Source: Thermoanaerobaculales bacterium
GTDB lineage: Bacteria; Acidobacteriota; Thermoanaerobaculia; Thermoanaerobaculales; Sulfomarinibacteraceae
NCBI GenBank assembly: GCA_029287235.1
Contig: JARFRM010000288.1
Location: forward strand, 59,891 to 123,890
Direction of reading: 5' to 3'
Length of the DNA: 64,000 bases
Position 1 is the stretch's first letter. Each line of letters starts with the position of its first letter. The position numbers and the translations under genes were made by a program. Below are positions 6,326 through 57,273 of the stretch, piece by piece. The notes below the pieces were generated by a model that was not told the DNA's origin, ran no database searches, and was given only the letters and a program-made list of their open reading frames with translations.

Positions 6326-6492
6326 TAGGAGCCTGCACCGCATAGATGGTGGATGGATTTCGGAGCGTCATTCGTGGCCGTTTTTCGCCTGATTCGCCGG
6401 TTCATACTGGTGGTATGGGCCAAGAAACAGGCGAAAAACGGGCCAAATGCCGCCCGAAAGGCGCCGCCGATTCTATGCGGTGCAGGCTCCTA
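6326..6492 (-). repeat. 167-bp palindromic repeat, copy 1 (inverted relative to copies 2 and 3)
   Basis: TAGGAGCCTGCACCGCATAGA...TCTATGCGGTGCAGGCTCCTA terminal inverted repeats; central hairpin CATAC-TGGTG-GTATG; about 7 mismatches to copy 3 (reverse complement) with no indels. Confidence 0.93.
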
Positions 6493-6542
6493 ACCCGTTC
6501 TTCTCACCAGCTGTTCGGCTGCGGTCGATTCAGTGCACTGGT

Positions 6543-6590
6543 TGAAACGCAAAGATCGCAATGATCGCAAAGTCCATCGCAAAGCACCCG
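6543..6590 (+). repeat. Quasi-periodic GCAAAG intergenic repeat (sense half)
   Basis: aacgcaaagatcgcaatgatcgcaaagtccatcgcaaagcacc; GCAA(A/T)G recurs every ~9-13 bp. Confidence 0.7.
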
Positions 6591-6668
6591 TCTCATCAAT
6601 ACCCATCGCAACGGGTTGATTGTGTTCAGACATCGACAGAATGTTGTGTCGGTGTGATGGGTCAGTCA

Positions 6669-6760
6669 TGCGATGTCCTTTGCGATTTTCTTAGCGTGCT
6701 TGGCGGTCTTTGCGGTAAGACTGCGATGGAATCTGTGTGATCTGTGGGCCGTAGCGTCGT
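6669..6760 (-). repeat. Quasi-periodic GCAAAG / ATCTGTG intergenic repeat (antisense half)
   Basis: gcgatgtcctttgcgattttcttagcgtgcttggcggtctttgcggtaag...ctgcgatggaatctgtgtgatctgtggg; closely matches 9956-10012. Confidence 0.75.
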
Positions 6761-6786
6761 GCGATGACCCGGCATCCGGCATCTCG

Positions 6787-8145
6787 CTACTGCAGCAATC
6801 CGACCAGATCCGAAACCGACTCGATGGGCACGGTCCCAAGCGGGAGCTCGGCGTCCGTCGCCCGCGCCGGGAGCGCGACTCTGCCAAAACCCAAAGCGGC
6901 GGCTTCGCGGACCCGTTCACCGGTACGGTTGACGGCTCGGACCTCGCCGAGAAGTCCGATCTCGCCGAAGACCGCGAGATCGGTGGGCAGCGGACGATCC
7001 GCCGCCGATGAAATCAATGCGGCTGCAACAGCGAGATCGAGCGCCGGTTCCTTCAGCGACAGACCGCCGACGAGATTGAGAAAGATGTCGCGGTCGGCGA
7101 AACTGATCCCGGCGTGGCGCTCGATGACCGCGACGAGGAGCGCGAGACGCGAGCCGTCAAAGCCGTGCGCGACACGCCGCGGTGTGCCCAGGGCAGAGGG
7201 CGCTACGAGCGCCTGAACCTCGACGAGGAGTGGTGCGGTCCCCTCCAGGGCGGCGGAGACAGCAGAACCCGGAACGCCCTGACGGCGATCTTCGAGGAGC
7301 CACGCCGATGGATTCTGAACTCCCTCGAGACCGCGCTCGGTCATGGACCAGAGGGCGAGCTCGGCCACCGTGCCGAAACGATTCTTCCCCGCCCGCAGCA
7401 CCCGAAGATCATGGCCCGGTTCGCCCTCGAGGGAGAGCACCACGTCAACCAGGTGCTCAAGGAGTTTTGGACCGGCGATGTGACCCTCTTTGGTGACATG
7501 GCCGACGAGGACGACTGGAATCCCACGCGATTTCGCAAGGTGCTGAAAGCGGGCCGCCACCTGGCGCACCTGGCTCACCGAACCGGCCACCGCATCGAGC
7601 TCCTCGGAGGTCATGGTCTGGATCGAGTCGACCACGATCAGCTGAGGTGAGCTTGCCTCGAGCTGGTCCATGACCGCATCGCAGGAGGTCTCAGGTAGCA
7701 GTATGAGCTCGGCCTCGAGACCACCGATGCGGCGCGCGCGAAGCGCAACCTGTTCGGACGACTCTTCACCGGTGACATAGATGACCGGTCCGCGGTCGGC
7801 CGCCGTTGCAGCCGCCACCTGGAGCAGCAGGGTCGATTTGCCGACCCCGGGCTCGCCGGCGACCAGCACCAGGGATCCCGGGACCAGACCACCGCCGAGG
7901 ACGCGGTCGACGCCGTCGAGCCCGGTGGGAGTACGGGTCGTGGGCACGGCGGCGGCCTCGGTGATCGGCACCGCGCTGGCGCCGCGCCTTGTCTGTGGCT
8001 TCGGTTTGCCGCCGCGGCTGCTCCTGGGTGGTTTGAGCTCCTCGGCGAAGCTGTTCCACGAACCGCATCCCGGGCACTGTCCGAGCCACTTGCTCGACTC
8101 GTGACCGCAGTCGGTGCAGAAAAAAATCGTCTCCTTGGCGGCCAC
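6787..8145 (-). CDS. radA: DNA repair protein RadA
   Basis: Zinc finger CTDCGHESSKWLGQCPGCGSWNSF, Walker A GEPGVGKSTLL, KNRFG motif, C-terminal Lon-like domain. Confidence 0.96.
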   Translation of the reverse strand: MAAKETIFFCTDCGHESSKWLGQCPGCGSWNSFAEELKPPRSSRGGKPKPQTRRGASAVPITEAAAVPTTRTPTGLDGVDRVLGGGLVPGSLVLVAGEPGVGKSTLLLQVAAATAADRGPVIYVTGEESSEQVALRARRIGGLEAELILLPETSCDAVMDQLEASSPQLIVVDSIQTMTSEELDAVAGSVSQVRQVAARFQHLAKSRGIPVVLVGHVTKEGHIAGPKLLEHLVDVVLSLEGEPGHDLRVLRAGKNRFGTVAELALWSMTERGLEGVQNPSAWLLEDRRQGVPGSAVSAALEGTAPLLVEVQALVAPSALGTPRRVAHGFDGSRLALLVAVIERHAGISFADRDIFLNLVGGLSLKEPALDLAVAAALISSAADRPLPTDLAVFGEIGLLGEVRAVNRTGERVREAAALGFGRVALPARATDAELPLGTVPIESVSDLVGLLQ

Positions 8146-8163
8146 GGACTCAGCCCGTCGGAT

Positions 8164-9549
8164 CTACCACGGGGCATCAGCCTCGCGGTGGGACGTGTCC
8201 GCGTTCTCGAAACGGGTGAACTCGTGCTGGAAGACGAGATCGATGTCGCCGATGGGGCCGTTACGTTGCTTGGCGATGAGGAGCTCGGCCTTGCGGGGGT
8301 CCTCGACATCCCGGTCGTAGACCGATGGACGGATGATGAACATGACGACGTCGGCATCCTGTTCGATGCTCCCGCTCTCACGCAGATCCGACAATTGCGG
8401 CCGGTGATCGCCACCGCGACGCTCGGGCTGCCGGCTGAGCTGTGAGAGCACCAGCATCGGTACGCCGAGGTCTTTGGCGATCCCCTTGAGACCCCGCGAG
8501 ATGGCCGACACTTCCTCGTTTCTGCTGGGAAAGCGCGACCCGCCCGACATGAGCTGGAGATAATCCACCATGACCAGATCGAGTCCCTTATCCTGCTTGA
8601 GCCGGCGTGCCTTGGCCGAGAGCTCGAGCACCGTGATGCCCGGGGAGTCGTCGACCCAGATGTCGGCGTCCTGCAGCGCCTGGGCCGCCATTTCGAGCTT
8701 GGGCCAGTCCGACTTGGCGAGGTAACCCCCGGAAAGTCTTTTTTGGTCGACCCGACCCTCGGCCGAGAGCATGCGGCGAACCAGCTGTTCGGCCGACATC
8801 TCGAGGGAAAAGATGGCCACCTTCTTGTTGGTGCGGAGGGCGGCGTGGGTGCAGATGTTGACGCCGAGAGAGGTCTTCCCCATGGACGGGCGGGCGGCGA
8901 GGATGACCAGATCCTTGCTTTGGAAACCCGAAGTGAGCTCGTTGAGGCGAACAAAACCGGTGTCGAGTCCGGTGAGGGGCGAGTGCGATGACCGGCTCTC
9001 CTCGATATTCTGGAGCTCGGTTTCGGCGAGGCCGCGGATGTGCTGAAGACCGCCGGCGAGGGTGTCCTCGGCGATGTGGTAGACATCACGCTGCGCCGAC
9101 TCGACGGCCTCGCGAGCCTCTCCGTGATCCAGGGAGCAGGTGGTGAGGATCTTCTGCGCCGCGCCGATGAGCTGGCGTTTGATCGACTTGTCGTGGACGA
9201 TCTCACCATAGTGGGTGACATTGGCCACATCGGGCAACGCATCGACCATGGATGACAGATAGGCCGCCCCACCGACCCTCTCGAGCTGGCCCTGCTCGCG
9301 CAGGTGGTTGGTCACCGTCAGGAGATCCACCGCCTGACCGTGTTCCTGCAGGGCGATGCAGGTGGAGTAGATGAGGCGGTGGGCCTCGATGTAGAACTCG
9401 TCCTCGCGGACCTTCTCGAGGACCATGAGCAGCGCGTTGGGGTCGAGGAGGATGGCGCCGAGAACGGCGCGCTCGGCCTCGGGCTCGTACGGCAGGCGCT
9501 CGACCATCGGTGGGCCGGATCGGATCACGTCGGATGGGTTGCTGCTCAT
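8164..9549 (-). CDS. dnaB: Replicative DNA helicase
   Basis: PYEPEAERAVLGAILLDPNAL, DLVILAARPSMGKTSLGVNI, DLVMVDYLQLM, LSQLSRQPERRGGDHRPQLSDLRESGSIEQDADVVMFI. Confidence 0.97.
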   Translation of the reverse strand: MSSNPSDVIRSGPPMVERLPYEPEAERAVLGAILLDPNALLMVLEKVREDEFYIEAHRLIYSTCIALQEHGQAVDLLTVTNHLREQGQLERVGGAAYLSSMVDALPDVANVTHYGEIVHDKSIKRQLIGAAQKILTTCSLDHGEAREAVESAQRDVYHIAEDTLAGGLQHIRGLAETELQNIEESRSSHSPLTGLDTGFVRLNELTSGFQSKDLVILAARPSMGKTSLGVNICTHAALRTNKKVAIFSLEMSAEQLVRRMLSAEGRVDQKRLSGGYLAKSDWPKLEMAAQALQDADIWVDDSPGITVLELSAKARRLKQDKGLDLVMVDYLQLMSGGSRFPSRNEEVSAISRGLKGIAKDLGVPMLVLSQLSRQPERRGGDHRPQLSDLRESGSIEQDADVVMFIIRPSVYDRDVEDPRKAELLIAKQRNGPIGDIDLVFQHEFTRFENADTSHREADAPW

Positions 9550-9589
9550 GGGCCAACCATCCTACATCAACCGAATCGCGGTACGGGCC

Positions 9590-9730
9590 CGAACCGGTAT
9601 TCGTGTCCGTATCCGATCCCGATCCCGATCCCGATCCCGTATCCGATCCCGATCCCGTTCCCGATCCCGTTCCCGTTCCCGATCCCGGATGCCGGTCCAT
9701 CGCTATCGGGATCGCAGTCGCTATCGAACG
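9590..9730. repeat. Degenerate hexanucleotide tandem repeat (GATCCC/GTTCCC)n; minus strand is (GGGATC)n
   Basis: 11 CCC runs separated by 3-nt GAT/GTT spacers at 9615-9686 with one GTATCC interruption, flanked by degraded hexamers. Confidence 0.92.
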
Positions 9731-9954
9731 AGAAGCGACCGGGAAAGCTGCCGGCAGCCCGATTCAGGCATGCGCCGTCGACGAGACGCCGATTGTCGCA
9801 GATGCCGTCGCCTGGATACCGATGAGGTGACCGACTTCGTGTTTGCGGCGATCTGCCAACCGCTCTGCGATGTTTTTGCAGTGCTACGGTCCTGATTTCT
9901 TGAATTCCCGTCAAGGAATTTCCTGCCACGCAAGTGTGCGATGGGATAACAATG

Positions 9955-10035
9955 CGATGGCCTTTGCGATGTTCTTGGCGTTCGTGGCGGTCTTTGCGGT
10001 GAACCTGCGACGCGACCTTGGCGCCTTTGCGGCTC
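9955..10035 (-). repeat. Quasi-periodic GCAAAG intergenic repeat
   Basis: gcgatggcctttgcgatgttcttggcgttcgtggcggtctttgcggtgaacctgcga; near-identical layout to 6669-6725. Confidence 0.75.
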
Positions 10036-11110
10036 AACCCTTCTGTAGTTCCCGCAAAACCTCGACCGCCTCGGCGGTTTCGACCCGCTGATCGAGGACG
10101 ACCCCGTCATCGGTGGGGAGAACCCACGCGATCCCGTCGGCGTCGCGTTTCTTGTCCACCGCGATGTAGGAGCAGACCGCCCCGGCATCGAGATCGGCGA
10201 TGCCTGGGCGCTCGCCGAGCTTTCGGGAGGCGGTGCGAAGTTCCTTCTCGCCGTCGGCCGAGAGCAGTCCGTGTCGTCGCCCGAGGATCGCCGCGGCTTC
10301 GAGGCCCCACGCCACCGCCTCGCCGTGGAGAAATCGTTCGTAGCGGGTGGCCGCCTCGAGGGCGTGGCCCATGGTGTGGCCGAGGTTGAGAGCCTTGCGG
10401 CGGCCGGCTTCGCGCTCGTCTTCGGCGACGACCTCGGCCTTGATGGCTACCGACCGAGCGACGAGGGCCTCCCACGCCTGTGGAGACATCGAGTCGTAGC
10501 CCATCTCGATCGCCTCCGGCGCCAGGTCCAGAAGCGATCGGTCGTTGATCCATGCAGCCTTGACGACCTCGGCGAGACCTGCCCGGAGCTCGCGGGCGGG
10601 CAGAGTCGAGAGGGTGTTGGTGTCGGCGATGACCAGGCGGGGAGGCCAGAAGGCGCCGACCAGATTCTTGCCCTCCGGCAGGTTGACCCCGGTCTTGCCG
10701 CCGACGGCGGCGTCGACCATCCCGAGGAGGGTCGTGGGTGCGGCGATCCAGGCGATGCCGCGAAGATACGTGGCGGCGGCGAAGCCCACGGTGTCGGTGA
10801 TGATCCCGCCGCCGATCGCGAGCGCCGAACCACCGCGATCGAGACCGTTTCCGAGCCAGTGTCGGCAGGTTCTTTCGACGGTGGCCCAAGTCTTGTTGGT
10901 CTCGCCGCCGGGCAGCTCCAGGAGATCCAACCCGAGGGCGGCGGCCAGCTTCCGACCATGGAGCGGTCCCACCGTCGTGTCGGTGACGATGGAGCGGGGA
11001 AGGGCGAGATTCTCGCCGTTGAGAATCTCGCCCAGTCTCTCGAGGCCTCCGGGTCCCACAATCGTCCTGTAGTCGCCCCGTCCTGACTTGACGTCGAGAT
11101 TGGCAGTCAT
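10034..11110 (-). CDS. aroB: 3-dehydroquinate synthase
   Basis: LELPGGETNKTWATVERTCRHWLGNGLDRGGSALAIGGGIITDTVGFAAATYLRGIAWIAAPTTLLGMVDAAVGGKTGVNLPEGKNLVGAFWPP. Start MTANLDV chosen over upstream M. Confidence 0.95.
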   Translation of the reverse strand: MTANLDVKSGRGDYRTIVGPGGLERLGEILNGENLALPRSIVTDTTVGPLHGRKLAAALGLDLLELPGGETNKTWATVERTCRHWLGNGLDRGGSALAIGGGIITDTVGFAAATYLRGIAWIAAPTTLLGMVDAAVGGKTGVNLPEGKNLVGAFWPPRLVIADTNTLSTLPARELRAGLAEVVKAAWINDRSLLDLAPEAIEMGYDSMSPQAWEALVARSVAIKAEVVAEDEREAGRRKALNLGHTMGHALEAATRYERFLHGEAVAWGLEAAAILGRRHGLLSADGEKELRTASRKLGERPGIADLDAGAVCSYIAVDKKRDADGIAWVLPTDDGVVLDQRVETAEAVEVLRELQKG

Positions 11111-11246
11111 GGAGCCATGGTACACGGAGTGGTGGTCGATGGCGGGATCCGGGATTCTTGGTTCAATTGAGATCGGTTCTTATTTTATTGCTCTGTAAGG
11201 ACTTGAGTGGTACCGTCTGAGGGTTGGCGACGACGCTCCCCGGAGG

Positions 11247-14200
11247 ATGTTGATGAGAACTTCGATCAGGCTGGCGATGGTGGCGATGGTGGCGACTGTG
11301 GTTTTCGGTGGATCGATTCCGGTGGGCGCTTCCGAGGTGATCACGCTCAACCCGGCGACGACCGGTCTCGTTTTCGAAGTCGGCGAGGACGAGATCCTCC
11401 ACCTTCGGGTCTCCGAAGTGCGGCTTGATCACATCGAAATCGGCGGCGCCGACTGGACGATCGTTCAAGTGCCCGGTGGCCACAATTTGATGGATCGAGG
11501 CCTCCCGTCGTTGCCGTATTTGAGCAGCGAGTACCTTCTGGATCGGACCGGCGGTATCGAAGTCGAGCTGGTCAGCCTCAAGCTCCGTGAGATCGACCTC
11601 GGCGCCCGTGGCATGGACGGTGTCGCGCCCTCCAAGGGGCATTTCGATCGGAACGTCGATCCAGAAAGCGTGCCCTGGACCTTTGACGACAAGGTCTACC
11701 AAGGAGCCGCGAGGTACCCGAGGGAGGATGTGTGGGTTGATGGGCCCCACATCGCGGGGCCCCTGCGCGGTCAGACTCTGCGATTCCCCCTGGCCCATTG
11801 GCGTCCCGATACCAATACCCTCTCGGTGGTCGAGGAAGCGTGGTTCCGGGTGGTTGATCTGACCAACGCCGGCAACCCGCGGGTCGGACCGGACCGTCCG
11901 CTAACCGGGCTCTTCGAAGCGTCCGCACGACTCCACGCCGTCAACTACGAGTCCTTCCGCGGCCGGACCTTGTCGTTTGTCGAGACTGGACGGCTGTTGA
12001 TCATTGCCGATCCCGACTTTCTCGACGAAATCGCACCGCTGGCCGAGTGGGAGACCTTGGTCGGCTATCCGACCACCGTCGTGTCCACCGCGGTGACCGG
12101 AAACACCACGACCTCGATCAAGGCCTTTATTCAATCGGTTTACGACGAGCCCGAAGGGTTGGCCTGGATCATCCTGGTGGGGGACTCACCACAGATTCCG
12201 ACTTTGACCGGGGTTCACAGCCAACATTCGCCGTGTGATGCCTGCTACACCAGGCTCGAGGGTGCTGACAACCGGGCGGACGCCGCGATCTCCCGGATCT
12301 CCGCCGTGGATGGGGACCAGGTGACGGTTCAGGTGTCGAAGATCCTTGCGTACGAGCAACAGCCGGACATCGGATCGGCCGGCGCCTGGTATCAGGCGGG
12401 GTTCGGGATCGGGTCGGATGACACGGGAGGAACCGGGCTGGCGGACTGGGAACGGATCGAGCTGCTGCGCGGTGATCTCATGGAACCCGTCTACACCTAC
12501 ACCGAGTTCGACCAGATCTATCACTCAAGCGCCACCGCGGGTCAGGTGTCCACCGCGGTCAATGAGGGCCGGAGCATGGGCCTCTACATCGGCCACGGTT
12601 CGAGCAGCGGATGGGTCACCACGGGTTTCAACACCACCAGCGCACACAATCTGACCAACGCCGAAATGTTGCCGACTATCTGGTCGGTGGCGTGCAACAA
12701 CGGCGAGTTCACCGTCACCGAGTGCTTCGCGGAGGCGTGGCTGCGCAGCGATGCCGGCGGCGCGGTCAGCTTCGAGGGCGGCACAACCACCGAGTCATGG
12801 GTGCCTCCCTGCGATGCCCAGCGCGCCATCGTCGATGCGCTGCGGCTCGAGACCGCCTTCACCACGGGTGGGCAGCACATGGCGGGCAAACAGGGCGTCA
12901 TGGATCTCCATGGCGATAGCAACTCCTCGGAGGGCAACAAGTGGGTGGAGCAGTCGGCACTCTTCGGCTCGTGCACGACCTGGATGCGCACCCTGCCGGC
13001 GGTCAGCCCGGACGAACCCGACGATTTCAGCTCGGCAGGTGGCGTCGTTTCGCTCACCGTGAAAGTGGGTGGAGCCCCTCTCGCCAAGGCCGGTGCCGCC
13101 ATCGTTTCGTTCTACGATTCAACCGGAGGGGTCGATGTCGTGGGTTCGGGCCTGATCGACGACAACGGCGTGGTGACGGCCACCGTGACGGGAGACCCGA
13201 CCCACTGTCACATTCACGGCCAGAATCTGATCCCGACCTCCTTCGAGCTCGGCGCCCGCGAGGCCGGTCGGATCTCCCTCGACGGTGCGGCCTACGCCTG
13301 CGCCGACACGGTCACCCTGCGGGTGGCCGACAGCAACATCCCCGGTTCGAGCCCGGGAACCATCGACACGACGACCGCCGAGCTGGCGACGGGCGGCGCG
13401 ACGCACACGGTGACGCTCACCGAGGTGGCCGCCGACCGCGACATCTTTGTCGGCACCGCGGTCCTCGGGACCGATCTCGCCGTCGGCAACGGCGACACCC
13501 TCGTTGCCACCTACATCGACGCGGATGATGGCGATGGCGGCGTGAACATCTCGCGAACCGCAGACGCGGGGGTTGACTGTTTGGGTCCGGTCATTACCGA
13601 CATCCAGGCGACGGCCGTTGAGTCGTCGGTCAGCTTCAGTTACACAACCGACGAACCGGGCACCACGGTCGTGGTCTACGGGGAGACCGCACCGCCGAGC
13701 TCCGTCGTCAGCGACGACACCTTGACGACCGATCACCAGATCACCATCGACGGTGTTTCGCCGTGTACGACCTACCTCTTCGAAGTCCGATCCGCCGACG
13801 CGCTGAACAATCTGACCAGCGACAGCAACGGTGGCGCTTTCCACCGGGTGGACACGGCCGGCTGGGCGAGCTTCTTCAGCGAGACTTTTGACTCCGACCC
13901 GGGTTGGACCATCGACAACGGCAGCTTCTCGACGACCGGATGGGCATTCGGCGAGCCCACCGGATCCGGTCAGGACAACTACGGCGGGCCCGATCCGACG
14001 GCCGGTTTCACGGGCGTCGATGTCTACGGCGTCAACCTCGAAGGCGACGCGCCGGCAAACGTTGGTGACAACGAGATCAAGCTCACGACGCCGGTGATCG
14101 ATCTGTCCGCGGCGACCTCGGTCCGGCTTCGCTTCCGGCGCTGGCTGGGTGTCGAGCAGAACATCTACGATCACGCGCGGGTTCGGTTGTCCCTTGACGG

Positions 14201-14483
14201 TGGCAACAGCTGGCAGGCGGCCTGGGAGAACGGCAGCACAACCATTGATGATCAGGCGTGGATCGAGCAGGTCATCGAACTTCCGCAGGCGGTCGGCCAG
14301 AACCAGGTACGGATCCAATGGACCTACGGGTCGGCGGATGGCCTCTGGAACTACTGTGGCTGGAACATCGACGATGTCGTCGTCGAGGGCGGCGTGCCCT
14401 GCGGCACTGTGAGCCCGCTCTTCGCCGATGGCTTTGAAATCGGCAGCTGCGGGATGTGGAGCACTGTCGTCGGCGAGAACTGA
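11247..14483 (+). CDS. Secreted gingipain-like (family C25) cysteine peptidase with C-terminal FADGFE motif
   Basis: Signal peptide; WIILVGDSPQIPT; YIGHGSSSGWVTTGF (catalytic His region) and IWSVACNNGEFTVTECFAEAWL (catalytic Cys region); Ig/CUB-like C-terminal domains; ends LFADGFEIGSCGMWSTVVGEN. Confidence 0.8.
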   Translation: MLMRTSIRLAMVAMVATVVFGGSIPVGASEVITLNPATTGLVFEVGEDEILHLRVSEVRLDHIEIGGADWTIVQVPGGHNLMDRGLPSLPYLSSEYLLDRTGGIEVELVSLKLREIDLGARGMDGVAPSKGHFDRNVDPESVPWTFDDKVYQGAARYPREDVWVDGPHIAGPLRGQTLRFPLAHWRPDTNTLSVVEEAWFRVVDLTNAGNPRVGPDRPLTGLFEASARLHAVNYESFRGRTLSFVETGRLLIIADPDFLDEIAPLAEWETLVGYPTTVVSTAVTGNTTTSIKAFIQSVYDEPEGLAWIILVGDSPQIPTLTGVHSQHSPCDACYTRLEGADNRADAAISRISAVDGDQVTVQVSKILAYEQQPDIGSAGAWYQAGFGIGSDDTGGTGLADWERIELLRGDLMEPVYTYTEFDQIYHSSATAGQVSTAVNEGRSMGLYIGHGSSSGWVTTGFNTTSAHNLTNAEMLPTIWSVACNNGEFTVTECFAEAWLRSDAGGAVSFEGGTTTESWVPPCDAQRAIVDALRLETAFTTGGQHMAGKQGVMDLHGDSNSSEGNKWVEQSALFGSCTTWMRTLPAVSPDEPDDFSSAGGVVSLTVKVGGAPLAKAGAAIVSFYDSTGGVDVVGSGLIDDNGVVTATVTGDPTHCHIHGQNLIPTSFELGAREAGRISLDGAAYACADTVTLRVADSNIPGSSPGTIDTTTAELATGGATHTVTLTEVAADRDIFVGTAVLGTDLAVGNGDTLVATYIDADDGDGGVNISRTADAGVDCLGPVITDIQATAVESSVSFSYTTDEPGTTVVVYGETAPPSSVVSDDTLTTDHQITIDGVSPCTTYLFEVRSADALNNLTSDSNGGAFHRVDTAGWASFFSETFDSDPGWTIDNGSFSTTGWAFGEPTGSGQDNYGGPDPTAGFTGVDVYGVNLEGDAPANVGDNEIKLTTPVIDLSAATSVRLRFRRWLGVEQNIYDHARVRLSLDGGNSWQAAWENGSTTIDDQAWIEQVIELPQAVGQNQVRIQWTYGSADGLWNYCGWNIDDVVVEGGVPCGTVSPLFADGFEIGSCGMWSTVVGEN

Positions 14484-14584
14484 GCGCGCGAGCGGCGGCC
14501 TCCTTCCGAACTGGAACAGATGCACCGGATCGTTTTGCCGCGAGGGTCGCCACGGGAACGGGCACGGACGTTGGCGCTTCCAAC

Positions 14585-14612
14585 AAAAGGGGCCCCGCGA
14601 GGGGCCCCTTTT
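14585..14612. terminator. Bidirectional intrinsic terminator between convergent genes
   Basis: AAAAGGGGCCCC-GCGA-GGGGCCCCTTTT, perfect 12-bp stem. Confidence 0.85.
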
Positions 14613-14634
14613 GGGTTGATGATGAATACGTTCT

Positions 14635-17538
14635 TTAGAACCGGAACTTGGCGCCGACCTGGTAGGTTCGCGGGGTGCCTGGAAGATTGTTCGCGCCGAA
14701 GTCATCGTCGAAGTAGTCGAACTCGTCGGTGAGCCAGTTGGAGGCGTCGAAGAGGTTGAAGACCTCGGCGATGAGCTCGAGCTGCATCCGTTTGCCGAGG
14801 TTGGCGGTCCAGCTCAGACGGAGATCGAAGGTGGTGAAGTTGGGCTGCCTTTCGGTGTTGCGGTCGAAGAGTTCGAAAACACCGGGGGCGACCTCGACCA
14901 TGGCGGTCTCGTTGCGGTAGCCGTCACCGTTGTTGTCGTCGGGATCCTCGGCCGAGTACGGGTAGCCGCTCCGCCGGGTGTAGATGCCCGAGACGAGGAA
15001 GTTGGCGGGAAGCTGCCAACCGAAGGAGGTCACGAACTTGTGGCGGGCGTCGAAGTTCGAGTAACCCCAGCTGTAGGAAAGATCGAACTGATCCTGGGGG
15101 AAGTCGCTGGACGACGACACCGAACGCTCGTTGGAGTCGTGGTCCTTGGAGCTCGACCAGGTGTAGGAGAAATCGATGAACCAGTTGTCGGCGAAGCGCT
15201 TGCGACCGTGAAGGATAACCGCGCGGTACTCCTGGTCTGCATCCGAGAAGAACTGGATGATCTGATCGAAGTCGTCGTAGACATCGCCATCGACATAGGT
15301 CGGGCGACCGTCGGGGGTGGTTCCGCCATCGGGACGGATGTTCTGGTCCCACTTGCGCTGGAGCTTCTTGGTGTCCTGCCAGATCGCGCTGATCCCGAGG
15401 GAGAAGTTGCGGACGATCTCGCGCTCGTAGCCGAGGGACATGCGAAGGGTCTCGGGGTTCTCGAAGGACGGGTCGTAGACGAAGATGTCGGGTCGGACCG
15501 CGTCTCCGGCATCCGAAGGCGAGTTCCAGGTGTTGGGAAAATCAGGACAGACGCCGGGGTTGTCGAAGCAACGCACCGAGTAGCGGACCACGCGGATGCC
15601 GTTGGTGAGCATGGCGTTGGCGTCGAGCAGGGTCGGGGTGTTGTCGTAGAACATCCCAATGCCGCCTCGAAGCACCGATTTGCCGTCGCCTCCGATGTCC
15701 CAGGCAAAGCCGACCCGGGGCGCGAAGTTGTTGGAGTCGTTGGGGATCTGACCGGTGAGCGGATAGAGCGGGTTGGTCTCTTTGGGTTTGTCGTGCTGCT
15801 GGAACTCGTAGCGCAGACCATAGGTCAGGGTGAAGTTCGGCGCCGCCCGCCACTCGTCCTGGAAGTAGGCCGCATAGTAGTTGTTGGTGAACTTCACCGC
15901 ACCGTCGTAGTCGGAGAAGCTCTGGGTGTAGCTGAACGGCGTGCCGCCGTCGAGGAAACCCTCGTCATCGCCTTCCCACTCGTTGTAGGAGTAGGAACCA
16001 CCGCCATAGCGGAAGAAGCCGTCGTCAAAGCTGACGAAATCGAGATTGACGCCGAACTTGAAGGTGTGTTGGCCTTTGTAGAAGGTCAGATTGTCGATGA
16101 GCTGGATCCGATTCTCATCCAGAAAGTTGGGCAGGAACTGGTTCTGGCCCCAGTTGGCGCGGAAACGGAAGATCCCGACTTCCGGGATATCGGTGTTGTT
16201 GGCGCCGCGCGGGCGCTCTTCCACCGACCACTGGAGATATGCCTCGTTGAACATGGAGTCGGTGAAGACCGAGTTGAGGGTGCCGACCAGCGAGTTGAAG
16301 CTGTTCTCCTCGAGCCCGTTGTTGGAACGACCGGTGTTGGAGAACGTGGAGGTGAGGTTTTTGCCTTCCTGGGTGGAATAGTTGTCGCGAATGGTCAGCA
16401 GGTGGTTGTCGCTGAGCTGCCAGTCGAGCTTGATGAGGAAGACCAGCGCGTCGTTGGTGGTCGGGATCTCACCGAAGTCTGACTGGGTGGTCTGGCCGCC
16501 GGTCTCGGTCGCGAAGTCGAGACCTGTAAGTGCTTCCCAGTCGGCCGTCCGGTCAAAGGGGAAATCGCGGAACTGGACAAAGTACGGGATCTCGAAGTCC
16601 TGCGCATCCACCGAGGTGAAGAAGTGCAGCTTGTCACGGACGATCGGTCCGCCGAGGGCGAAACCGTACTGGAGTTGCGATTGCTCGGTCGGGTCGCGAG
16701 GATCGACCTGGTCGTTGCCGGCGGTGCTGCCGACCATGGAGTCGTTGGTGTAGTAGGTCCAGAGCTCACCGCGGAAGCTGTTGGTGCCCGACTTTGTGAT
16801 GGCGTTGATCACCGCACCCGAAGAGCTGAACTGGGTGCCATAGTCGGATTTGATGACCTGGAGCTCTTTGATGGCTGCCTGCGAGAAGGTGAAGGGCGGG
16901 CGGGTGCCGCCGCGCTCCTCACCAAAGAAGCTCGACTGGTTGTTGGCGCCGTCGATGTTGAACGAGTTCTGGATCGCGCGGGCGCCGACGTTCAGGCCGC
17001 CACGGGCGCCCTGAACGGCATCGGTGTCACCATAGGTGGCACCCGGGGTCAGCAGTGCGAAGTCGGTGAAGTCGCGGCCCTGCAGGGGCAGGTTGGCGAT
17101 CTGCTCATCGCTGACTTTCGCCGACGCGTTGGGGTTCGTGGTCTCCACCACCGGAGCTTCGGCAGTGACGACGATCTCCTCCTCGACGGCGGAGAGCTCG
17201 AGGGCGAAGTCGATCCGGACCGATGAGCCCAGACCGATGCTGATACCGCGATAGATGGAGGTTTTGAACCCGGCCAGGGTGGATTTGATCTCGTACGCGC
17301 CCACCGGGATCAGGGTGAGGCGGTAGAAACCGCTCCCGTCCGAGACCGCCCGCCGGGTGAAACCGGTCTCCGTGTTCTTGATCTCGATGGTGGCGCCCGG
17401 CATGATCGCTCCATTGGGGTCGGTCACGGTACCGAAGAGCTGACCCGTTGAAGAGTCCGACTGCGCCAAGAGGGTTTGAGGCGCCAGCGCGACGAGCGCC
17501 AACACCAAGAGTCCGCCGATAAATCGATGACCTTTCAT
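14635..17538 (-). CDS. TonB-dependent receptor with N-terminal carboxypeptidase regulatory-like domain (Oar-like)
   Basis: Signal peptide; GQLFGTVTDPNGAIMPGATIEIKNTETGFTRRAVSDGSGFYRLTLIPVGAYEIKSTLAGF; plug domain; C-terminal beta-strand ending YQVGAKFRF. Confidence 0.92.
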   Translation of the reverse strand: MKGHRFIGGLLVLALVALAPQTLLAQSDSSTGQLFGTVTDPNGAIMPGATIEIKNTETGFTRRAVSDGSGFYRLTLIPVGAYEIKSTLAGFKTSIYRGISIGLGSSVRIDFALELSAVEEEIVVTAEAPVVETTNPNASAKVSDEQIANLPLQGRDFTDFALLTPGATYGDTDAVQGARGGLNVGARAIQNSFNIDGANNQSSFFGEERGGTRPPFTFSQAAIKELQVIKSDYGTQFSSSGAVINAITKSGTNSFRGELWTYYTNDSMVGSTAGNDQVDPRDPTEQSQLQYGFALGGPIVRDKLHFFTSVDAQDFEIPYFVQFRDFPFDRTADWEALTGLDFATETGGQTTQSDFGEIPTTNDALVFLIKLDWQLSDNHLLTIRDNYSTQEGKNLTSTFSNTGRSNNGLEENSFNSLVGTLNSVFTDSMFNEAYLQWSVEERPRGANNTDIPEVGIFRFRANWGQNQFLPNFLDENRIQLIDNLTFYKGQHTFKFGVNLDFVSFDDGFFRYGGGSYSYNEWEGDDEGFLDGGTPFSYTQSFSDYDGAVKFTNNYYAAYFQDEWRAAPNFTLTYGLRYEFQQHDKPKETNPLYPLTGQIPNDSNNFAPRVGFAWDIGGDGKSVLRGGIGMFYDNTPTLLDANAMLTNGIRVVRYSVRCFDNPGVCPDFPNTWNSPSDAGDAVRPDIFVYDPSFENPETLRMSLGYEREIVRNFSLGISAIWQDTKKLQRKWDQNIRPDGGTTPDGRPTYVDGDVYDDFDQIIQFFSDADQEYRAVILHGRKRFADNWFIDFSYTWSSSKDHDSNERSVSSSSDFPQDQFDLSYSWGYSNFDARHKFVTSFGWQLPANFLVSGIYTRRSGYPYSAEDPDDNNGDGYRNETAMVEVAPGVFELFDRNTERQPNFTTFDLRLSWTANLGKRMQLELIAEVFNLFDASNWLTDEFDYFDDDFGANNLPGTPRTYQVGAKFRF

Positions 17539-17598
17539 TCCACACTCCCTTCCTTCCTACCTATATGAAAACCCGTGAAAAAATCTTCGGCGCCCACG

Positions 17599-19272: not shown

Positions 19273-19387
19273 GGCGTGCGGGGATCATATCAGAGCCCGA
19301 GGGTCCGGTCTTGCTTGGCGGGTGGACCGTGACCGCGTATAACTGAGCCATGGTTTCATTTGCTCAACGACTCAGGATCGCCTCCCC

Positions 19388-20575: not shown

Positions 20576-20679
20576 AGTTCTGCTGCTGACCCGGAAGAAG
20601 GTTCCTTCGGCTCCGGCCTTCCTGGACGCCCAAGGCGTCCCAGCGTCGCGCGATCAGCGTGGTCATGTGTCCTTGCGGT

Positions 20680-42345: not shown

Positions 42346-42399
42346 GATCCAGCATCCAGCATCGCTCGTCTGTGTTAGGCTCCGGCCTCGGAGGTCTGC

Positions 42400-43341: not shown

Positions 43342-43659
43342 TTGCTCGGAAATCCCCGTGGAAGGCTTGGAGCCTTCACCGTGCATTTCCGAGATAGACT
43401 CACTGTCATGGTCATCACAGGTGCGAATCGGGTTGGGGTGCCGCTCGTTGCCGCAGCAGTGTTCCTCTTGGTGTTGCCGTCCACCGGTTTCGCCTGCGTC
43501 GAGCATGTGGCCGATCTGCCCGATGGCCCCTCCCGGGCGGTTGATCTCGAGGGAGATCTCGTCTATGTCGCTTTCGGCGATGCCGGGATCAACGTGTACG
43601 ACGTTTCGGCCTGCGAGCCGGCACCCGTTCGTCGGTCCGCCGTCCGTGTGACCCCCTGA
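43342..43659 (+). CDS. Short secreted protein; possible truncated LVIVD-type beta-propeller
   Basis: Signal peptide VPLVAAAVFLLVLPSTGFAC followed by one blade-like unit VDLEGDLVYVAFGDAGINVYDVSACEPAPV, then stop. Start uncertain (43342 or 43408). Confidence 0.4.
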   Translation: MLGNPRGRLGAFTVHFRDRLTVMVITGANRVGVPLVAAAVFLLVLPSTGFACVEHVADLPDGPSRAVDLEGDLVYVAFGDAGINVYDVSACEPAPVRRSAVRVTP

Positions 43660-43798
43660 CCTTCCACTACTTCAATTTTCATTCTCCGAGAATGCAGGGG
43701 CTTGCCAAAGGAAAGAACCGGCGCACCCGTGGGAAACGCGGACGTCGATTGTTCGGTGTGGACCTCCGGACTGCGGCCTTCACAGAACCCCGATCCCG

Positions 43799-46179
<2,381 letters not shown>

Positions 46180-46183
<4 letters not shown>

Positions 46184-46641
46184 TCGTCGTGGTTGAGGAG
46201 CAGGCCCTTGAGCTCCTCCATGAACTGGTTGACGTCCTCGAAACGGCGGTAGACGCTGGCGAAGCGCACATAGGCGACCTGATCGAGGTTGCGCAATCGT
46301 TCGATGACCAGATGGCCGATCTCCTCGGTGGACATTTCCCGGACCTCCTGCGACGCGATGGCGGTCTCCACCGCATCCACCACCACGACGAGGTCCTTCC
46401 GCGGGACGGGCCGTTTCTCACAGGCGCGAAGCATCCCGTTGAGCAGTTTCTCCCGGTCGAAGCTCTCGCGCCGACCGTCGCGTTTGACCACCGTGACCGG
46501 TAGCTCGTCAACCCGCTCGTAGGTGGTGAACCGACGGTTGCATTCCATGCACTCGCGCCGCCGGCGGATCTCCGCCCCCTCGCGCACCTCGCGCGAGTCC
46601 ACGACCCGGCTCGAGGCGCAGGCGCAGAACGGGCAGATCAC
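46180..46641 (-). CDS. nrdR: Transcriptional regulator NrdR
   Basis: ICPFCACASSRVVDSREVREGAEIRRRRECMECNRRFTTYERV plus ATP-cone. GTG start at 46641; the ORF track over-extends it upstream. Confidence 0.95.
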
Positions 46642-47666
46642 TCGGCGCTCCCCTCTTCGGCCAGGTCCTTGACGTCGGAAAAACGCATGCCCAGCAGCGG
46701 TAGACAGAGGAGCCCGATCACCGTGATGGGCACGAAGCAGATGGCGTGATAGACGATGGCGATGGCGGTAGCGAGGTTGAGCTCGACGCCGAAGAAGGTG
46801 GTCAGTCCGACCTGGGTGGCCTTGTGAAATCCACCGACCCCGCCGGGGGTCGGGATCGCGAGGCCGATGACGGCGAGGGTCACCAGGAGGAAGGCCACTC
46901 GGAGCGGCAGATCGAGGTGGAAGGCCAGGAGCGTGACCTTCACTTGCCAGAAAATGATGTACCAGAGAACAAAGGACGCGGTCATGGTCACGAGAAGATC
47001 TCGAGGGCGCTGGAGGACCCGCAGTCCATCGAGAAAGTGGTTGAGAAAGTTGGCAAAGGGCTCCCGCCACGATGGGGCGAAACGCGCCAGTGGTTTGCTG
47101 AGGATCGCGACGAACCGATCCTGATAACGAAAGAGGCCGAGCAGCGTGAGGGTACCGAGAGCCAGCGCGATCCCAACACCATAACCGGAGACCTGAAGGA
47201 GTCGGAGGTTTGCAGCGGCGCCGGCGTCGAGGTCCATCATGGACGGTGGCCAGATCAGGAACACCAGAAAGAAGAGCACCACGGTCCAGAGATCGAAAAC
47301 CCGTTCGGTGAGAATCGAGGCGAGTCCTGCGGAAACCGGGAAGTGATCCCGCTTGGCCAACAGCACGGGTCGGATGATGTCGCCCATGCGTGCCGGAAGA
47401 AGGGCGATGGCGGCGTAACCGACCGCGGTGGCCAGAAAAGCGCTCGAGTGACGGACATGAGCCACCGGTCGGAGAATGAGCATCCAGCGAATGACGCGGG
47501 CCCAGTAGGAAACGAGCGCCAGCAGGGTCGCCAAGGCGATGAGCCACGGGTTGGCCTGTGCCAATCCGGCCATCATTTCCTCGAAGTCGACATTCCACAG
47601 GAAGAACGCCAACAGGGCGACCATCAGCACCAACGAGACACCGATACGAACGGCAGGGCTCTTCAT
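46638..47666 (-). CDS. Lysylphosphatidylglycerol synthase TM region / UPF0104 flippase-like membrane protein
   Basis: Multiple TM segments; LLPARMGDIIRPVLLAKRDHFPVSAGLASILTERVFDL; PTPGGVGGFHKATQVGLTTFFG. Confidence 0.85.
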   Translation of the reverse strand: MKSPAVRIGVSLVLMVALLAFFLWNVDFEEMMAGLAQANPWLIALATLLALVSYWARVIRWMLILRPVAHVRHSSAFLATAVGYAAIALLPARMGDIIRPVLLAKRDHFPVSAGLASILTERVFDLWTVVLFFLVFLIWPPSMMDLDAGAAANLRLLQVSGYGVGIALALGTLTLLGLFRYQDRFVAILSKPLARFAPSWREPFANFLNHFLDGLRVLQRPRDLLVTMTASFVLWYIIFWQVKVTLLAFHLDLPLRVAFLLVTLAVIGLAIPTPGGVGGFHKATQVGLTTFFGVELNLATAIAIVYHAICFVPITVIGLLCLPLLGMRFSDVKDLAEEGSAE

Positions 47667-47729
47667 CGCCCACAGGGTAGTATGATGACGCCGTCTTCAC
47701 AACATCGTGGAGGGACGGCCGGGAGGATC

Positions 47730-48713
47730 ATGGCCGAGACGTCACCAGTTTTCGTGCGTTCGAACCCGCGGGTTCTCGGCCACGACCCGGGTCTGGGTCA
47801 TCCCGAGTCCGCTCAGCGGGTTCAAGTGATTCTGGATGTGCTCGAACCCGGTGCAGCCGGCCGATGGACGGTTGATCGGCAGGCGGCCGTTCCAACGGAC
47901 GAGGATGTGCTCGGGGTCTTGAAGTGGATCCACGACGAGGACTACATCGAGCGTGTTCGCGCCGTGTCGAACGAGGGTCACGGTTGGCTTGACACCCACG
48001 ATTGTCGGGTATCGCCGGAGACCTTCGACTCCGCTGTGGCTGCCGCCGGTCTGGCCATGAACGCGGCCCTCGATCTGGCCAACCGCAGGCTCGATCGAGC
48101 ATTTATCGTCCTTCGCCCGCCCTCCCACCACGCTGAGCGTGACTCGGCCAGGGGCTATTGCTTCTTCAACTCGGTGGCGGTGGCCGCGGAGGTGGTGGTG
48201 GGGAGTCTGGGCGAGCCGGTGGTGATCGTCGACTTTGACGCTCATCACGGCAACGGGACCCAGAAGCACTTCTTTGATCGGGGAGATGTCGGGTACGTGT
48301 CGGTTCACACCTACCCCGGTTTCCCGGGGACCGGGACCGCGGATGAGATTGGGGTGGGGGAGGGTTTGGGAACCACCCGGAACATGCCTCTCGTCGCCGG
48401 GGCTGACGACTCGATCTATTGCGCCGCATTCGAGGAAGCTCTCGACGAGGTTGCATCGAGGCTTCGGCCGGCGGCCATCATCGTGTCAGCCGGGTTTGAC
48501 GCCCATCCCTCGGACCCCATCGGCGCGATGCGGGTTTCGGAAGCGGGTTTCCGCCGTTTGAGCGCGGCGGTGACGGCAACGGCGCACAGATGGGCGAGCG
48601 GCCGGGTTCTCTCGTTTCTTGAAGGCGGATTCGATCGCCAAGCGCTGGCGAATTGCGCGCGGATTCACGTCGAGGAATTAGCCTCTGGGGACGCAGAGAA
48701 AGCCGATGCGTAA
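47730..48713 (+). CDS. Histone deacetylase / acetoin utilization family protein
   Basis: GHDPGLGHPESAQRVQVILDVL, RPPSHHAERDSARGYCFFNSVAVAA, VIVDFDAHHGNGTQKHFFDRGDVGYVSVHTYPGFPGTG, SAGFDAHPSDPIG. Confidence 0.93.
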   Translation: MAETSPVFVRSNPRVLGHDPGLGHPESAQRVQVILDVLEPGAAGRWTVDRQAAVPTDEDVLGVLKWIHDEDYIERVRAVSNEGHGWLDTHDCRVSPETFDSAVAAAGLAMNAALDLANRRLDRAFIVLRPPSHHAERDSARGYCFFNSVAVAAEVVVGSLGEPVVIVDFDAHHGNGTQKHFFDRGDVGYVSVHTYPGFPGTGTADEIGVGEGLGTTRNMPLVAGADDSIYCAAFEEALDEVASRLRPAAIIVSAGFDAHPSDPIGAMRVSEAGFRRLSAAVTATAHRWASGRVLSFLEGGFDRQALANCARIHVEELASGDAEKADA

Positions 48714-48807
48714 TTGTTCGCGATTGTGATCCGTGGTTTCTTTCAAAAAATGAACCCGGTTACTCACAGAAATCAGACTGAAGAAGTGCCGTTCATCACA
48801 AAATTCG

Positions 48808-48835
48808 TTGACCGTAGAATCACATTTGGTATATC
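48808..48835 (+). promoter_or_regulatory. Candidate sigma-70 promoter for the secreted repeat protein
   Basis: TTGACC-16 bp-TATATC in an AT-rich 180-bp intergenic stretch upstream of 48892. Confidence 0.4.
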
Positions 48836-48891
48836 ATCGAACAGGTTAGATTTTCGTCTGCGTAGACCTGCGCTTCAGAGGAGGACAGCTG

Positions 48892-50568
48892 ATGCGTCAC
48901 AGAATTATCATTGCGACATCCATTCTAGTGACGGTTTTGTTCGCCGGGAACGCCGTTGCAGAGACCATATTCCGCCTCGATACACCCGATGATGGGGCGA
49001 CTGTTTTCGGTCTCGTTGCGGTCACGGGCTATGTCCTCGACGACGGTCAGGACTGCGGCCCGCAATGGGCGTGGCGAAACTGTGATTGGGGTCCCACTTT
49101 GGTCAACAAAGTCGACCTCTACGTGGACGACGGGTACGTTGCCACGGCCGATCTCTACCAGCCGCGCTACGACGTGCTTCAGGCCTACCCCTGGTACACC
49201 GGCACACCGTACGAGCGCCCCGGATTCGCCACCTCATTCGATTCCGTCACCCTGAGCGACGGCAGTCACGAGCTCTTCGTGCGGGTCTCCTATGTCGATG
49301 GGACGGCGGAGGACTTCGGTCAACGCTCGGTGACCGTGGACAACAATCTCAACCAGTCGCCGTTTGGCGAGATCGAGCTCCCGGGCGAGGACCAGCCCAT
49401 GAGCGGTGTCTTCCCGGTCACCGGCTGGGCCCTCGATGATTCCGAAATCCGTTTCATCGAGATCCTGGTTGACGGCGTGTCGGTCGGAGATGCCGTGTAC
49501 GGTATTCATCGGCCCGACGTCATGCACAAATTTCCTTCCCATCCTGATGCCGAGTACGCGGGTTGGGTCAAGATGCTCAACACCACACTCTGGGCCAACG
49601 GGATTCACGTTCTGTCGGTTCGCCTAGTAGATGACGAGAACGCATCCCGGGTCATCGGCACCCGCTACGTTCAGACCTTCAACGTCAGCTACAACCTGCC
49701 TCCGTTCGGCGCCATCGACTGGCCCATCGCCAACCACATCATGTTTGCCAAGGGATGTTCGGATCCCGGTGGCTGGTCGAGCCCTCCCTACGAGGATCCG
49801 CAGGTGACCGAGTTGATCACGGGTTGGGCGCTCGATGTCGGGTCCCAGGTCGACAACGGTGGCGTGGGCTATGTTCAGCTGCTGCTCGACGGGACGATTC
49901 TTGCCGACACGAGCTTTCCGGGTTTCTGGCATGGCTGGCTCCGGATGGATGTCAACTACTATGGCCTCCCGCGGATGGACCTGCTCCAGCTCTTCACGGA
50001 CATTCCCAACGCCAAGGACTCTGGTTTTGCATTCGTCGTCGATGTTTCGGATCTCATCATCCGCCAGGGCTTCCGCCAGGGGCTCCACTATCTGAAGATC
50101 CGCGCGGGCGATCTCGAGAACAACGTCGCCGACATCGCTCAGATCCCGGTGATCTTCGACTGTGACGATGACCCGGACCGTCCCTCCTGGGGCGATATCT
50201 ACACCCCGGCCGCCCCAGCGGAGGTCGTGACCGGAACCGTGGATATCACCGGGTGGGCGATCGATTTGGACTTCATCGAGGAAATCGAGGTCTGGGTGGA
50301 CGGAGAATTCGTCGATTATGTCGACGAATTGTACCTCCCCAGCCCCGAGGTGGTTGGACGTTATCCCTGGTTCCCGAGTTACTTCACAGCGAACGCCGGA
50401 TACGCGTATGCATACGACACCGTCGCAGCGGACCTCGCCGATGGTGATCATGTGCTCGTCATCTGGACCGAGGATCGCTGGGGCGGACGGACCTTTATTG
50501 GAGAACGTCGATTCATCGTCGACAACCCGCAGGCCAACGGCGGTTCGGCAGGACTTTCGCTGGACTGA
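48892..50568 (+). CDS. Secreted protein with four tandem Ig-like repeats (TGWALD...DG type)
   Basis: Signal peptide; internal repeats VAVTGYVLDD, FPVTGWALDD, ELITGWALDV, VDITGWAIDL, each followed by a hydrophobic (V/L)DG/DDG strand and a DG/GLHxL strand. Confidence 0.75.
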   Translation: MRHRIIIATSILVTVLFAGNAVAETIFRLDTPDDGATVFGLVAVTGYVLDDGQDCGPQWAWRNCDWGPTLVNKVDLYVDDGYVATADLYQPRYDVLQAYPWYTGTPYERPGFATSFDSVTLSDGSHELFVRVSYVDGTAEDFGQRSVTVDNNLNQSPFGEIELPGEDQPMSGVFPVTGWALDDSEIRFIEILVDGVSVGDAVYGIHRPDVMHKFPSHPDAEYAGWVKMLNTTLWANGIHVLSVRLVDDENASRVIGTRYVQTFNVSYNLPPFGAIDWPIANHIMFAKGCSDPGGWSSPPYEDPQVTELITGWALDVGSQVDNGGVGYVQLLLDGTILADTSFPGFWHGWLRMDVNYYGLPRMDLLQLFTDIPNAKDSGFAFVVDVSDLIIRQGFRQGLHYLKIRAGDLENNVADIAQIPVIFDCDDDPDRPSWGDIYTPAAPAEVVTGTVDITGWAIDLDFIEEIEVWVDGEFVDYVDELYLPSPEVVGRYPWFPSYFTANAGYAYAYDTVAADLADGDHVLVIWTEDRWGGRTFIGERRFIVDNPQANGGSAGLSLD

Positions 50569-50600
50569 TCCCACCGGTCGATATCGCAAGAAATCTACCT

Positions 50601-50628
50601 CCGGCCGGGCATCGCGCCCGGCCGGTTT
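50601..50628 (+). terminator. Putative terminator hairpin
   Basis: CCGGCCGGGC-ATCGC-GCCCGGCCGGTTT. Confidence 0.7.
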
Positions 50629-50768
50629 GATAGGATCGCCCTTGCGCCGGTGACACCAGTTCCGGGGCGCGGCCGCCGGACCGGGAAAATCGAACCCGCG
50701 GACATCGACGAGAGGGGCGCAGCGGCGATCACGAGGTAGTTCATTGCGATCAATATGTGCGTGACAAC

Positions 50769-55485
<4,717 letters not shown>

Positions 55486-55520
55486 CGCGGTACCATGGGA
55501 GTTGAGTGAAAGGAGGGGTC

Positions 55521-55736
55521 ATGGAGATACCCGGCAAGGTCTCCGTCTATTGTCCCTTGATCGACGCCAAGGGCACGGCGGCGAAGCTGTTGGCGATCAC
55601 GTCTCAGGGTTACTATCACCTCGAGGTGGAGATCCGTGGTCGAAGACACACCATGTTCCTCCCCGTCGCCCAGGCCGCGATGTACTTTGCGGAACCTGAA
55701 CCCGAGATCGAAGAGGGTCTCGAGATCGAGCGCTAG
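55521..55736 (+). CDS. Small conserved-looking hypothetical protein
   Basis: MEIPGKVSVYCPLIDAKGTAAKLLAITSQGYYHLEVEIRGRRHTMFLPVAQAAMYFAEPEPEIEEGLEIER; strong SD AAAGGAGGGG; stop codon is the first 3 nt of repeat copy 2. Confidence 0.65.
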   Translation: MEIPGKVSVYCPLIDAKGTAAKLLAITSQGYYHLEVEIRGRRHTMFLPVAQAAMYFAEPEPEIEEGLEIER

Positions 55737-55900
55737 GAGCCTGCACCGCATAGAATCGGCGTCGCCTTTCGGGTGTCGATTGGCCCAGTCTTCGGCGGAT
55801 CCTCGGCCCATACCACCAGTATGAACCAGCGAATCCGCCGAAGAATGGTCCTGATCGACCCTCCGAAATCCATCCACCACCTATACACTACAAGCTCCCA
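55734..55900 (+). repeat. 167-bp palindromic repeat, copy 2 (diverged, covarying arms)
   Basis: TAGGAGCCTGCACCGCATAGAATCGGCG...CATACCACCAGTATG...CTCCGAAATCCATCCACCA...GCTCCCA; same length as copies 1 and 3. Confidence 0.9.
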
Positions 55901-55936
55901 GCGAATAAGGACCATGCCTCGCGTGTTACGTGAAGC

Positions 55937-57085
55937 GTGAATCGAGAGAATGATCTGGGCACGATGCTGGCGGCGAGGTGGCCGGAGGTCCTGCAACGCG
56001 TCAACGACGCGGTGCTGGTGCTCGACCACCAGCGAGTCCTTCGTTTCGTCAACACACCGGCGAGACGCCTGCTCGGCTACGCCGAGGATCATGCCATCGG
56101 GGGCCGCTGTCGTCTGACCACCAAGGGGGTCGATTGCGAGAACGCCTGCCCCCTGACCTTTGCCCTCGAGAGCGACATCGAACAGGTGGACAACTTCGCC
56201 ACCGTCTATCGCACCAAGGACGGGCGGGCCGTGCCCCTGACCGTCACGGTGATCCCGCTACGGGACGACGAGGGGAGCTTTCTGGGGGCGGTGGAGATCC
56301 TCCGCCCGAGGGACCCGGATCCGGGGTTTTTTCTCGCCGGTTCCTCGCTCACCGTGTCGGCCCTGAGGGCCCGGCTCGTACGTCACAGTCGAGGGAGTGG
56401 CCACCTCATTTTGGTGGGCGAGCGGCCGGCGTGCCGAGACGTTGGTCGCGCGATTCACCGGTTTGCGGATCTTCCCATCGAGCTTTTCGAGGTGTGGAGG
56501 GGTTCGTGGGAGTCGACGCCGGCGTGGCCTCCAGGAACCATGTATGCAGATGGAGAGTCGGCCACCACGCTGCTCCAGAGTGATCCGCATGACGGATGGC
56601 GGGTCGTGGCCGGAGTCGCGCCCGGAGATCAGCCGTTGGACGGGCACTTGCCCGCCGAGGTGGTAGAACTGCCGAAGGTGGATGAACTTCGCGATGATCT
56701 GGCCTTGATGGTGATCGCCTGGGCGAACGCCATGGCGCCGGGGATCACGGTCTCACCCGGGGCCCTGCAGCGTCTCGGCCGGCTTGCCTGCGGGAGTGGT
56801 CTTGAAGGCCTTGAGAAGGCCCTGGTCGCGGCGGTGGCCGCCGCCGATGGAAGGATCGAGGATGAACATCTGCCGGGGGATGGCTATACCAGCCATCTGG
56901 TGGATGAGCTGTTGCAGACCGAGAATCCGCTGGCAGCCCTCGAAGGTCGCCTGCTCACCGAGGTGCTCCACCGAAGCGAATGGCGGATGCAGGAAGCCGC
57001 GGATCGCCTCGGTGTGTCGCGCGTGACCCTGTGGAGAAAACTCAAGGACCACGGCATCGAACGCCCGGAGTGTGGCGAGGGCTAG
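55937..57085 (+). CDS. PAS domain regulator with degenerate bEBP-like middle region and Fis-type HTH
   Basis: PAS: VNDAVLVLDHQRVLRFVNTPARRLLGYAEDHAIGGRCRLTTKGVDCENACPL; C-terminal EWRMQEAADRLGVSRVTLWRKLKDHGI; no Walker A or GAFTGA found. Confidence 0.75.
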   Translation: MNRENDLGTMLAARWPEVLQRVNDAVLVLDHQRVLRFVNTPARRLLGYAEDHAIGGRCRLTTKGVDCENACPLTFALESDIEQVDNFATVYRTKDGRAVPLTVTVIPLRDDEGSFLGAVEILRPRDPDPGFFLAGSSLTVSALRARLVRHSRGSGHLILVGERPACRDVGRAIHRFADLPIELFEVWRGSWESTPAWPPGTMYADGESATTLLQSDPHDGWRVVAGVAPGDQPLDGHLPAEVVELPKVDELRDDLALMVIAWANAMAPGITVSPGALQRLGRLACGSGLEGLEKALVAAVAAADGRIEDEHLPGDGYTSHLVDELLQTENPLAALEGRLLTEVLHRSEWRMQEAADRLGVSRVTLWRKLKDHGIERPECGEG

Positions 57086-57106
57086 CCCTCGCCATCACGG
57101 CGTAGC

Positions 57107-57273
57107 TAGGAGGCTGCACCGCATAGAATTGGCGGCGCCTTTCGGGCGGCATTTGGCCCGTTTTTCTCCTGTTTCTTGGCCCATACCACCAGTATGAACC
57201 GGCGAAACAGGCGAAAAACGGCCACAAATGACGCTCCGAAATCCATCCACCATCAATGCGGTGCAGACTCCTA
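57107..57273 (+). repeat. 167-bp palindromic repeat, copy 3
   Basis: TAGGAGGCTGCACCGCATAGAATTGGCGGCGCC...CATACCACCAGTATG...CAATGCGGTGCAGACTCCTA; ~96% identical to reverse complement of copy 1. Confidence 0.93.

Follow-up and report, generated by a model that had tools for sequence, protein, structure and literature searches.

The window, that is, the whole 64,000-nucleotide stretch of contig JARFRM010000288.1 that was analysed, contains three copies of a 163-bp non-autonomous inverted-repeat element with the ends GGAG...CTCC. It is best explained, with a probability of roughly 0.8, as a TA-target MITE that is moved in trans into CTAG, often rebuilds stop codons there, and then decays. The family is new and previously undescribed; the kind of element is known. 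The mechanism is probably as follows. A transposase acting in trans would insert the element at the TA of CTAG and duplicate the TA. As CTAG is rare in the GC-rich host and much of it lies at TAG stops, insertions would often fall in stops. The first base of the element, G, would restore TAG and leave the host gene intact, and the resident copy would subsequently decay.

Structure of the element

Including the flanking dinucleotides, each copy spans 167 bp (6326-6492 on the minus strand, 55734-55900 and 57107-57273 on the plus strand), as the preliminary description had it. The element proper and its surroundings are listed in Table 1. Copies 1 and 3 can be aligned without indels at 96% identity (E = 4.5e-73). 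Copy 2 is 80% identical over positions 1-146 and its right end reads CTCCCA instead of CTCCTA; it is older than the other two.

Table 1. Coordinates of the three copies, their target duplications and adjacent genes in the window
Feature	Position	Strand	Remark
M20 peptidase gene	5038-6321		TAG stop at 6319-6321
TA, target-duplication copy (2 bp) of copy 1	6326-6327	.	4 bp beyond the M20 peptidase TAG stop
Copy 1, element proper GGAG...CTCC, 163 bp	6328-6490	-	young subfamily
TA, other target-duplication copy of copy 1	6491-6492	.	common to the end of the f2 repeat starting there
71-aa gene	55521-55736	+	native TAG stop is the insertion site of copy 2; no Pfam match
Target TA of copy 2	55734-55735	+	with base 55736 forms the TAG stop of the upstream gene
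Copy 2, element proper, 163 bp	55736-55898	+	older
CA (one-base change from TA), second target-duplication copy of copy 2	55899-55900	+	
PAS/Fis-type regulator gene	55937-57085		upstream of copy 3
TA, left target-duplication copy of copy 3	57107-57108	+	21 bp beyond the PAS/Fis-type regulator stop
Copy 3, element proper, 163 bp	57109-57271	+	young subfamily
TA, right target-duplication copy of copy 3	57272-57273	+	

The proposal that the whole element folds into one long hairpin holds for copies 1 and 3, which were folded and proved to lie far beyond shuffled sequence: copy 1 as RNA has an energy of -102.5 kcal/mol against -52 for the shuffles (z = -13.1), and copy 3 as DNA has z = -10.1. The element had also been called a near-perfect palindrome. 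This is true of the outer 21 bp, which are inverted repeats, but not of the inner segments, which are asymmetrical and give the element a polarity.

Copy number and distribution

The host genome (G000) is a GC-rich draft of 5.07 Mb in 336 contigs, 94% complete. Sequence search found the element or parts of it in about 40 places with differing flanks; in about 26, the match is longer than 120 bp. Thus the three copies are neither assembly artefacts nor the only ones in the genome, two possibilities raised beforehand. Several copies are located at the ends of contigs, as a repeat would be expected to be. Shortened forms of about 60-67 bp, which keep the ends but have lost most of the interior, were also observed (L041, L044, L039).

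A 20-base core of the element recurs in G001, a genome of the same genus that matches JAHECW01 ('Acidobacteria bacterium isolate Ww181') in the public databases, and in diverged form in a further genus. Genome G003 has its own young subfamily, with at least 104 end matches. A covariance model of 44 copies, run on 149 genomes of the class, found the element in at least 12 of them, nine from the same family as the host and two and one from two other families; these counts are lower bounds, given strict filters and a per-genome limit. All three genomes from the two other families carry the ends TAGGAG...CTCCTA. The distant matches (G087, G102 and G107) come from a single model search, with same-looking ends and partly clear homology of the interior. 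No match to the element was found in plasmids, phages and viral contigs. Nor did the Rfam search give a match above the gathering threshold, in line with the earlier statement that no named family fits.

Target site and its duplication

The comparison with an empty site, suggested in the preliminary description, could be made at the nucleotide level for copy 2. The empty site in G001 is ...ATCGAACGA TA GCGAATAAG... (...GAACGA-TA-GCGAATAAG...), the filled site in the host is ...ATCGAGCGC TA(GGAG...CTCC)CA GCGAATAAG..., and both flanks can be aligned. Thus the TA, here within ATAG, was duplicated, and one of its copies later became CA. The predicted TA duplications are seen on both sides of most young copies, but at this locus, the sole alignable empty site, the right duplication copy is altered to CA. 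For copy 1, an empty site was sought at the nucleotide level in G001 and G004, where the spacer is too diverged; the genes flanking this copy are syntenic in both genomes, which are element-free at this place.

Of the 55 copies for which a target was inferred, 36 have CTAG and seven have TTAG. The TA is preceded by C in 45 of the 55 and by T in nine, and followed by G in 44. As a background, 11 of the 720 TA sites in the window are in CTAG, including some at the copies themselves. The left TA, often lying within a stop codon, is kept in 45 of the 55 copies, and the right TA in 34. The target of the element is TA, mainly within CTAG, and it is duplicated on insertion.

Many copies have flanks that could be taken for CTAG at left and right, which would suit a MITE of an IS5/IS427-type element with the ends GAG...CTC and a 4-bp YTAR duplication. 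However, five copies with T before the left TA (copy 1 on C25, those at C5, C183 and C197, and the G003 copy at C171) have C at the right, where duplication of YTAR would have repeated the T. The duplication is therefore the 2-bp TA; the 4-bp duplication was rejected, and such an origin is extremely improbable.

Insertion into stop codons

Many copies lie exactly on the TAG stop of a neighbouring gene. Orthologues from G001 and G002 stop at the same residue as the host genes that run into the element. At C71, C322, C309, C197, C232 and copy 2, at least one of these orthologues has a native TAG; some others have TGA. The situation at C183, C74 and C188 is less clear, as the orthologues diverge or stop a few codons later. 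Since there is a G at both ends of the element, TA followed by this G rebuilds TAG and the gene stays intact.

Stop-codon junctions are formed by the left end in 17 cases and by the right end in seven (two-sided binomial, about 0.06). This excess, together with the position directly at stop codons, is what one would see if the element were a structured RNA spread as a mobile 3'-UTR, the stop and the hairpin stabilising or ending the transcript and the copies being kept for that. However, insertion into stops is largely explained by the targeting of CTAG: four of the seven CTAG sites outside the copies in the window mark the end of a reading frame that is 100 or more codons long.

Covariation of the arms and decay of the copies

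In a 67-pair structure common to 44 copies, 80% of the cells pair and 32 of the 67 pairs are changed on both sides. The covariation score is 0.198, compared with 0.045-0.081 for slid pairings, and in the terminal inverted repeats (outer 21 bp) 89.5% of the cells are paired. Paired variation of this kind could be due to an RNA or to matched transposon ends, and the conservation of the inner and apical segments would again agree with an RNA.

Within G003, however, pairs are lost at the chance rate. Single changes keep the pair in 25% of cases, with 31% expected; substitutions affect 5.5% of paired and 4.1% of unpaired sites; and the terminal helix has 22 pair-breaking single changes and one compensated. 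Between the young consensus of the host and that of G003, the terminal helix differs in six pairs, all changed on both sides and five of them still paired. The arms have thus evolved together between the subfamilies and decay freely inside G003; therefore the symmetry is renewed in the mobile lineage and not locus by locus, which is what a single enzyme having to bind both ends would lead one to expect. A functional RNA maintained at every site was rejected on the same grounds. The absence of an Rfam match also speaks against it, and we consider it very unlikely.

Conservation extends to the apical hairpin and to the inner segments (GGCGCCTTTCGGGTGTCG and CGACCCTCCGAAATCCATCC), to the latter also across genera, yet they are asymmetrical. 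A plain MITE needs no conserved asymmetric inner segments, and the binding of ends alone leaves these segments and the apical hairpin unexplained. Probably the inner segments are kept because they are needed for mobility. One possibility, unlikely but deserving some weight, is that transposition depends on the hairpin, with an unrecognised enzyme recognising the inner segments and the apical hairpin as a folded strand or a cruciform. The persistence of the element in several families, with no IS630 gene in its three main carriers, would be consistent with this.

Candidate transposases

If the element is a TA-target MITE, its mover would be a DDE transposase of the IS630/Tc1-mariner type. ISY100, a member of the IS630 family, duplicates TA (PMC2170065), and a preference of IS630 for TA in CTAG is given in the title of Tenzen & Ohtsubo 1991, as it appears in the reference list of PMC2170065. 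TA duplication together with CTAG preference is the IS630 signature. A DDE_3 (IS630) gene was sought in the carriers G000, G001 and G003, and none was found. Of 40 relatives, seven have an IS630 transposase, and the ends of these seven loci are unlike those of our element. The search for a full-length autonomous partner, also suggested earlier, was negative in the draft genomes searched: among the matches listed for G000 and G003, there are no pairs of element ends 0.8-3 kb apart able to enclose a gene. The missing DDE_3 gene or autonomous partner is weak evidence, because draft genomes often lose multi-copy elements. Membership in the IS630 family is something we infer, as the partner transposase is missing. 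The search for an ISAzo13 transposase gave no match, the control being equally silent.

The element has the general traits of MITEs: a length of 163 bp without coding capacity, many copies, terminal inverted repeats and target duplication. MITEs usually, though not by strict definition, have an autonomous relative in their own genome or in a related one. The preliminary description had left the choice between a TA-target MITE and a REP/BIME-like repeat. The empty site, the TA duplication, the CTAG target and the co-evolving inverted repeats support the former; the REP/BIME reading is not supported. REP/REPIN sequences are characterised by a tag (GTAG or CGTC) and a local 20-40 bp hairpin, and by a repeat flanking the RAYT gene.

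Like REP/REPIN/BIME sequences and TIRtrons, the element is an intergenic palindromic repeat. A RAYT/TIRYT-like Y1 (HUH) transposase would move a repeat of this type as single-stranded DNA, the right TA being part of the element and no duplication arising. The empty site taken alone is compatible both with TA duplication and with a TA-ending element inserting after CTA, the element is a strong hairpin, and RAYT-like genes, recommended for checking, are present in the host (17 Y1_Tnp matches). Moreover, tyrosine transposases flanked by TIRs of their own are known in Acidobacteria (PMC3733652). However, clear inverted repeats flank nine of the 12 RAYT-like loci examined, almost all of these repeats being of a GTGCCA type unrelated to the element, and no RAYT-like gene is flanked by the element's ends (some loci are cut by contig ends). 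On this basis, RAYT was rejected as the mover. Furthermore, the target is symmetrical (C precedes and G follows), as would fit a double-stranded palindromic target; the ends CTAGGAG... have neither a GTAG nor a CGTC tag; and the outer arms pair with each other end to end, with no local REP hairpins. Hence we regard this origin as improbable. The repeats of the RAYT-like genes L051, L052, L054, L055 and L057-L061 mostly begin with GTGCCAG or GTGCCAC, differ from gene to gene and are TIRtron-like.

Comparison with known repeats

According to passages of PMC2229807 and PMC10969869, the enterobacterial ERIC (127 bp) shares with the element the TA ends, target duplication, hairpin and adjacency to genes. 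It differs in size and host, and is set apart here by description, not by sequence; CTAG or stop-codon targeting is not among its features stated in these passages. RUP of Streptococcus pneumoniae (107 bp) is likewise non-autonomous and noncoding, has a TA target and a proposed IS630-type mover, IS630-Spn1 (PMC2229807). An IS630 that matches RUP exists, whereas the search for one matching our element, whose palindrome and arms are longer, was negative. The IS630/ISY100 insertion sequences share the duplicated TA target and, for IS630, the CTAG preference (PMC2170065 and its reference list); in contrast, the element has no transposase gene, and no IS630 with its ends was found in the relatives. 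YPAL/RU-2 of Yersinia (about 168 bp) is similar in its near-identical length, palindrome and intergenic location, but it has no TA ends, its inverted repeats are internal, and its duplications range from 3 to 26 bp (PMC2229807).

Neighbouring repeats

A second, unrelated palindromic family, f2, about 180 bp long and starting TARCCCGNNNTTCTCACCA..., was observed in G000, G001 and G003. It has Y-TA flanks, some copies lie at stop codons, and it is sometimes joined end to end with the first family. Copies were seen in the window (6491-6528), in L027 (1320-1501) and in L028, L147, L154, L161, L165, L169, L173 and L177. The stop site of C322 is occupied by the element in G000 and by an f2-like end in G001 (L185, L154; G001:C195), that is, by two families at the same site. 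Loci L198-L215 (G004, G003) have a shorter hairpin of 80-93 bp whose ends, TAGGAGCNTGTAGGGCATAGG, are related. GGGATGCGCTGCGCGCATCC often comes next, and some copies add a third palindrome that ends in GAACTCCTA, so that the whole is a modular array. Beside copy 1, positions 6539-6730 of the window are another dispersed repeat, GCAAAG-rich and matching several places in G001.

Biological significance

The element, unnamed but well sampled, is a mobile repeat found in uncultured Acidobacteria. It exemplifies harmless insertion by a selfish element, which hits a stop codon and rebuilds it. Its subfamilies show the joint evolution of two transposon ends alongside the decay of resident copies, and the element flags the hosts in which to seek the missing transposase.
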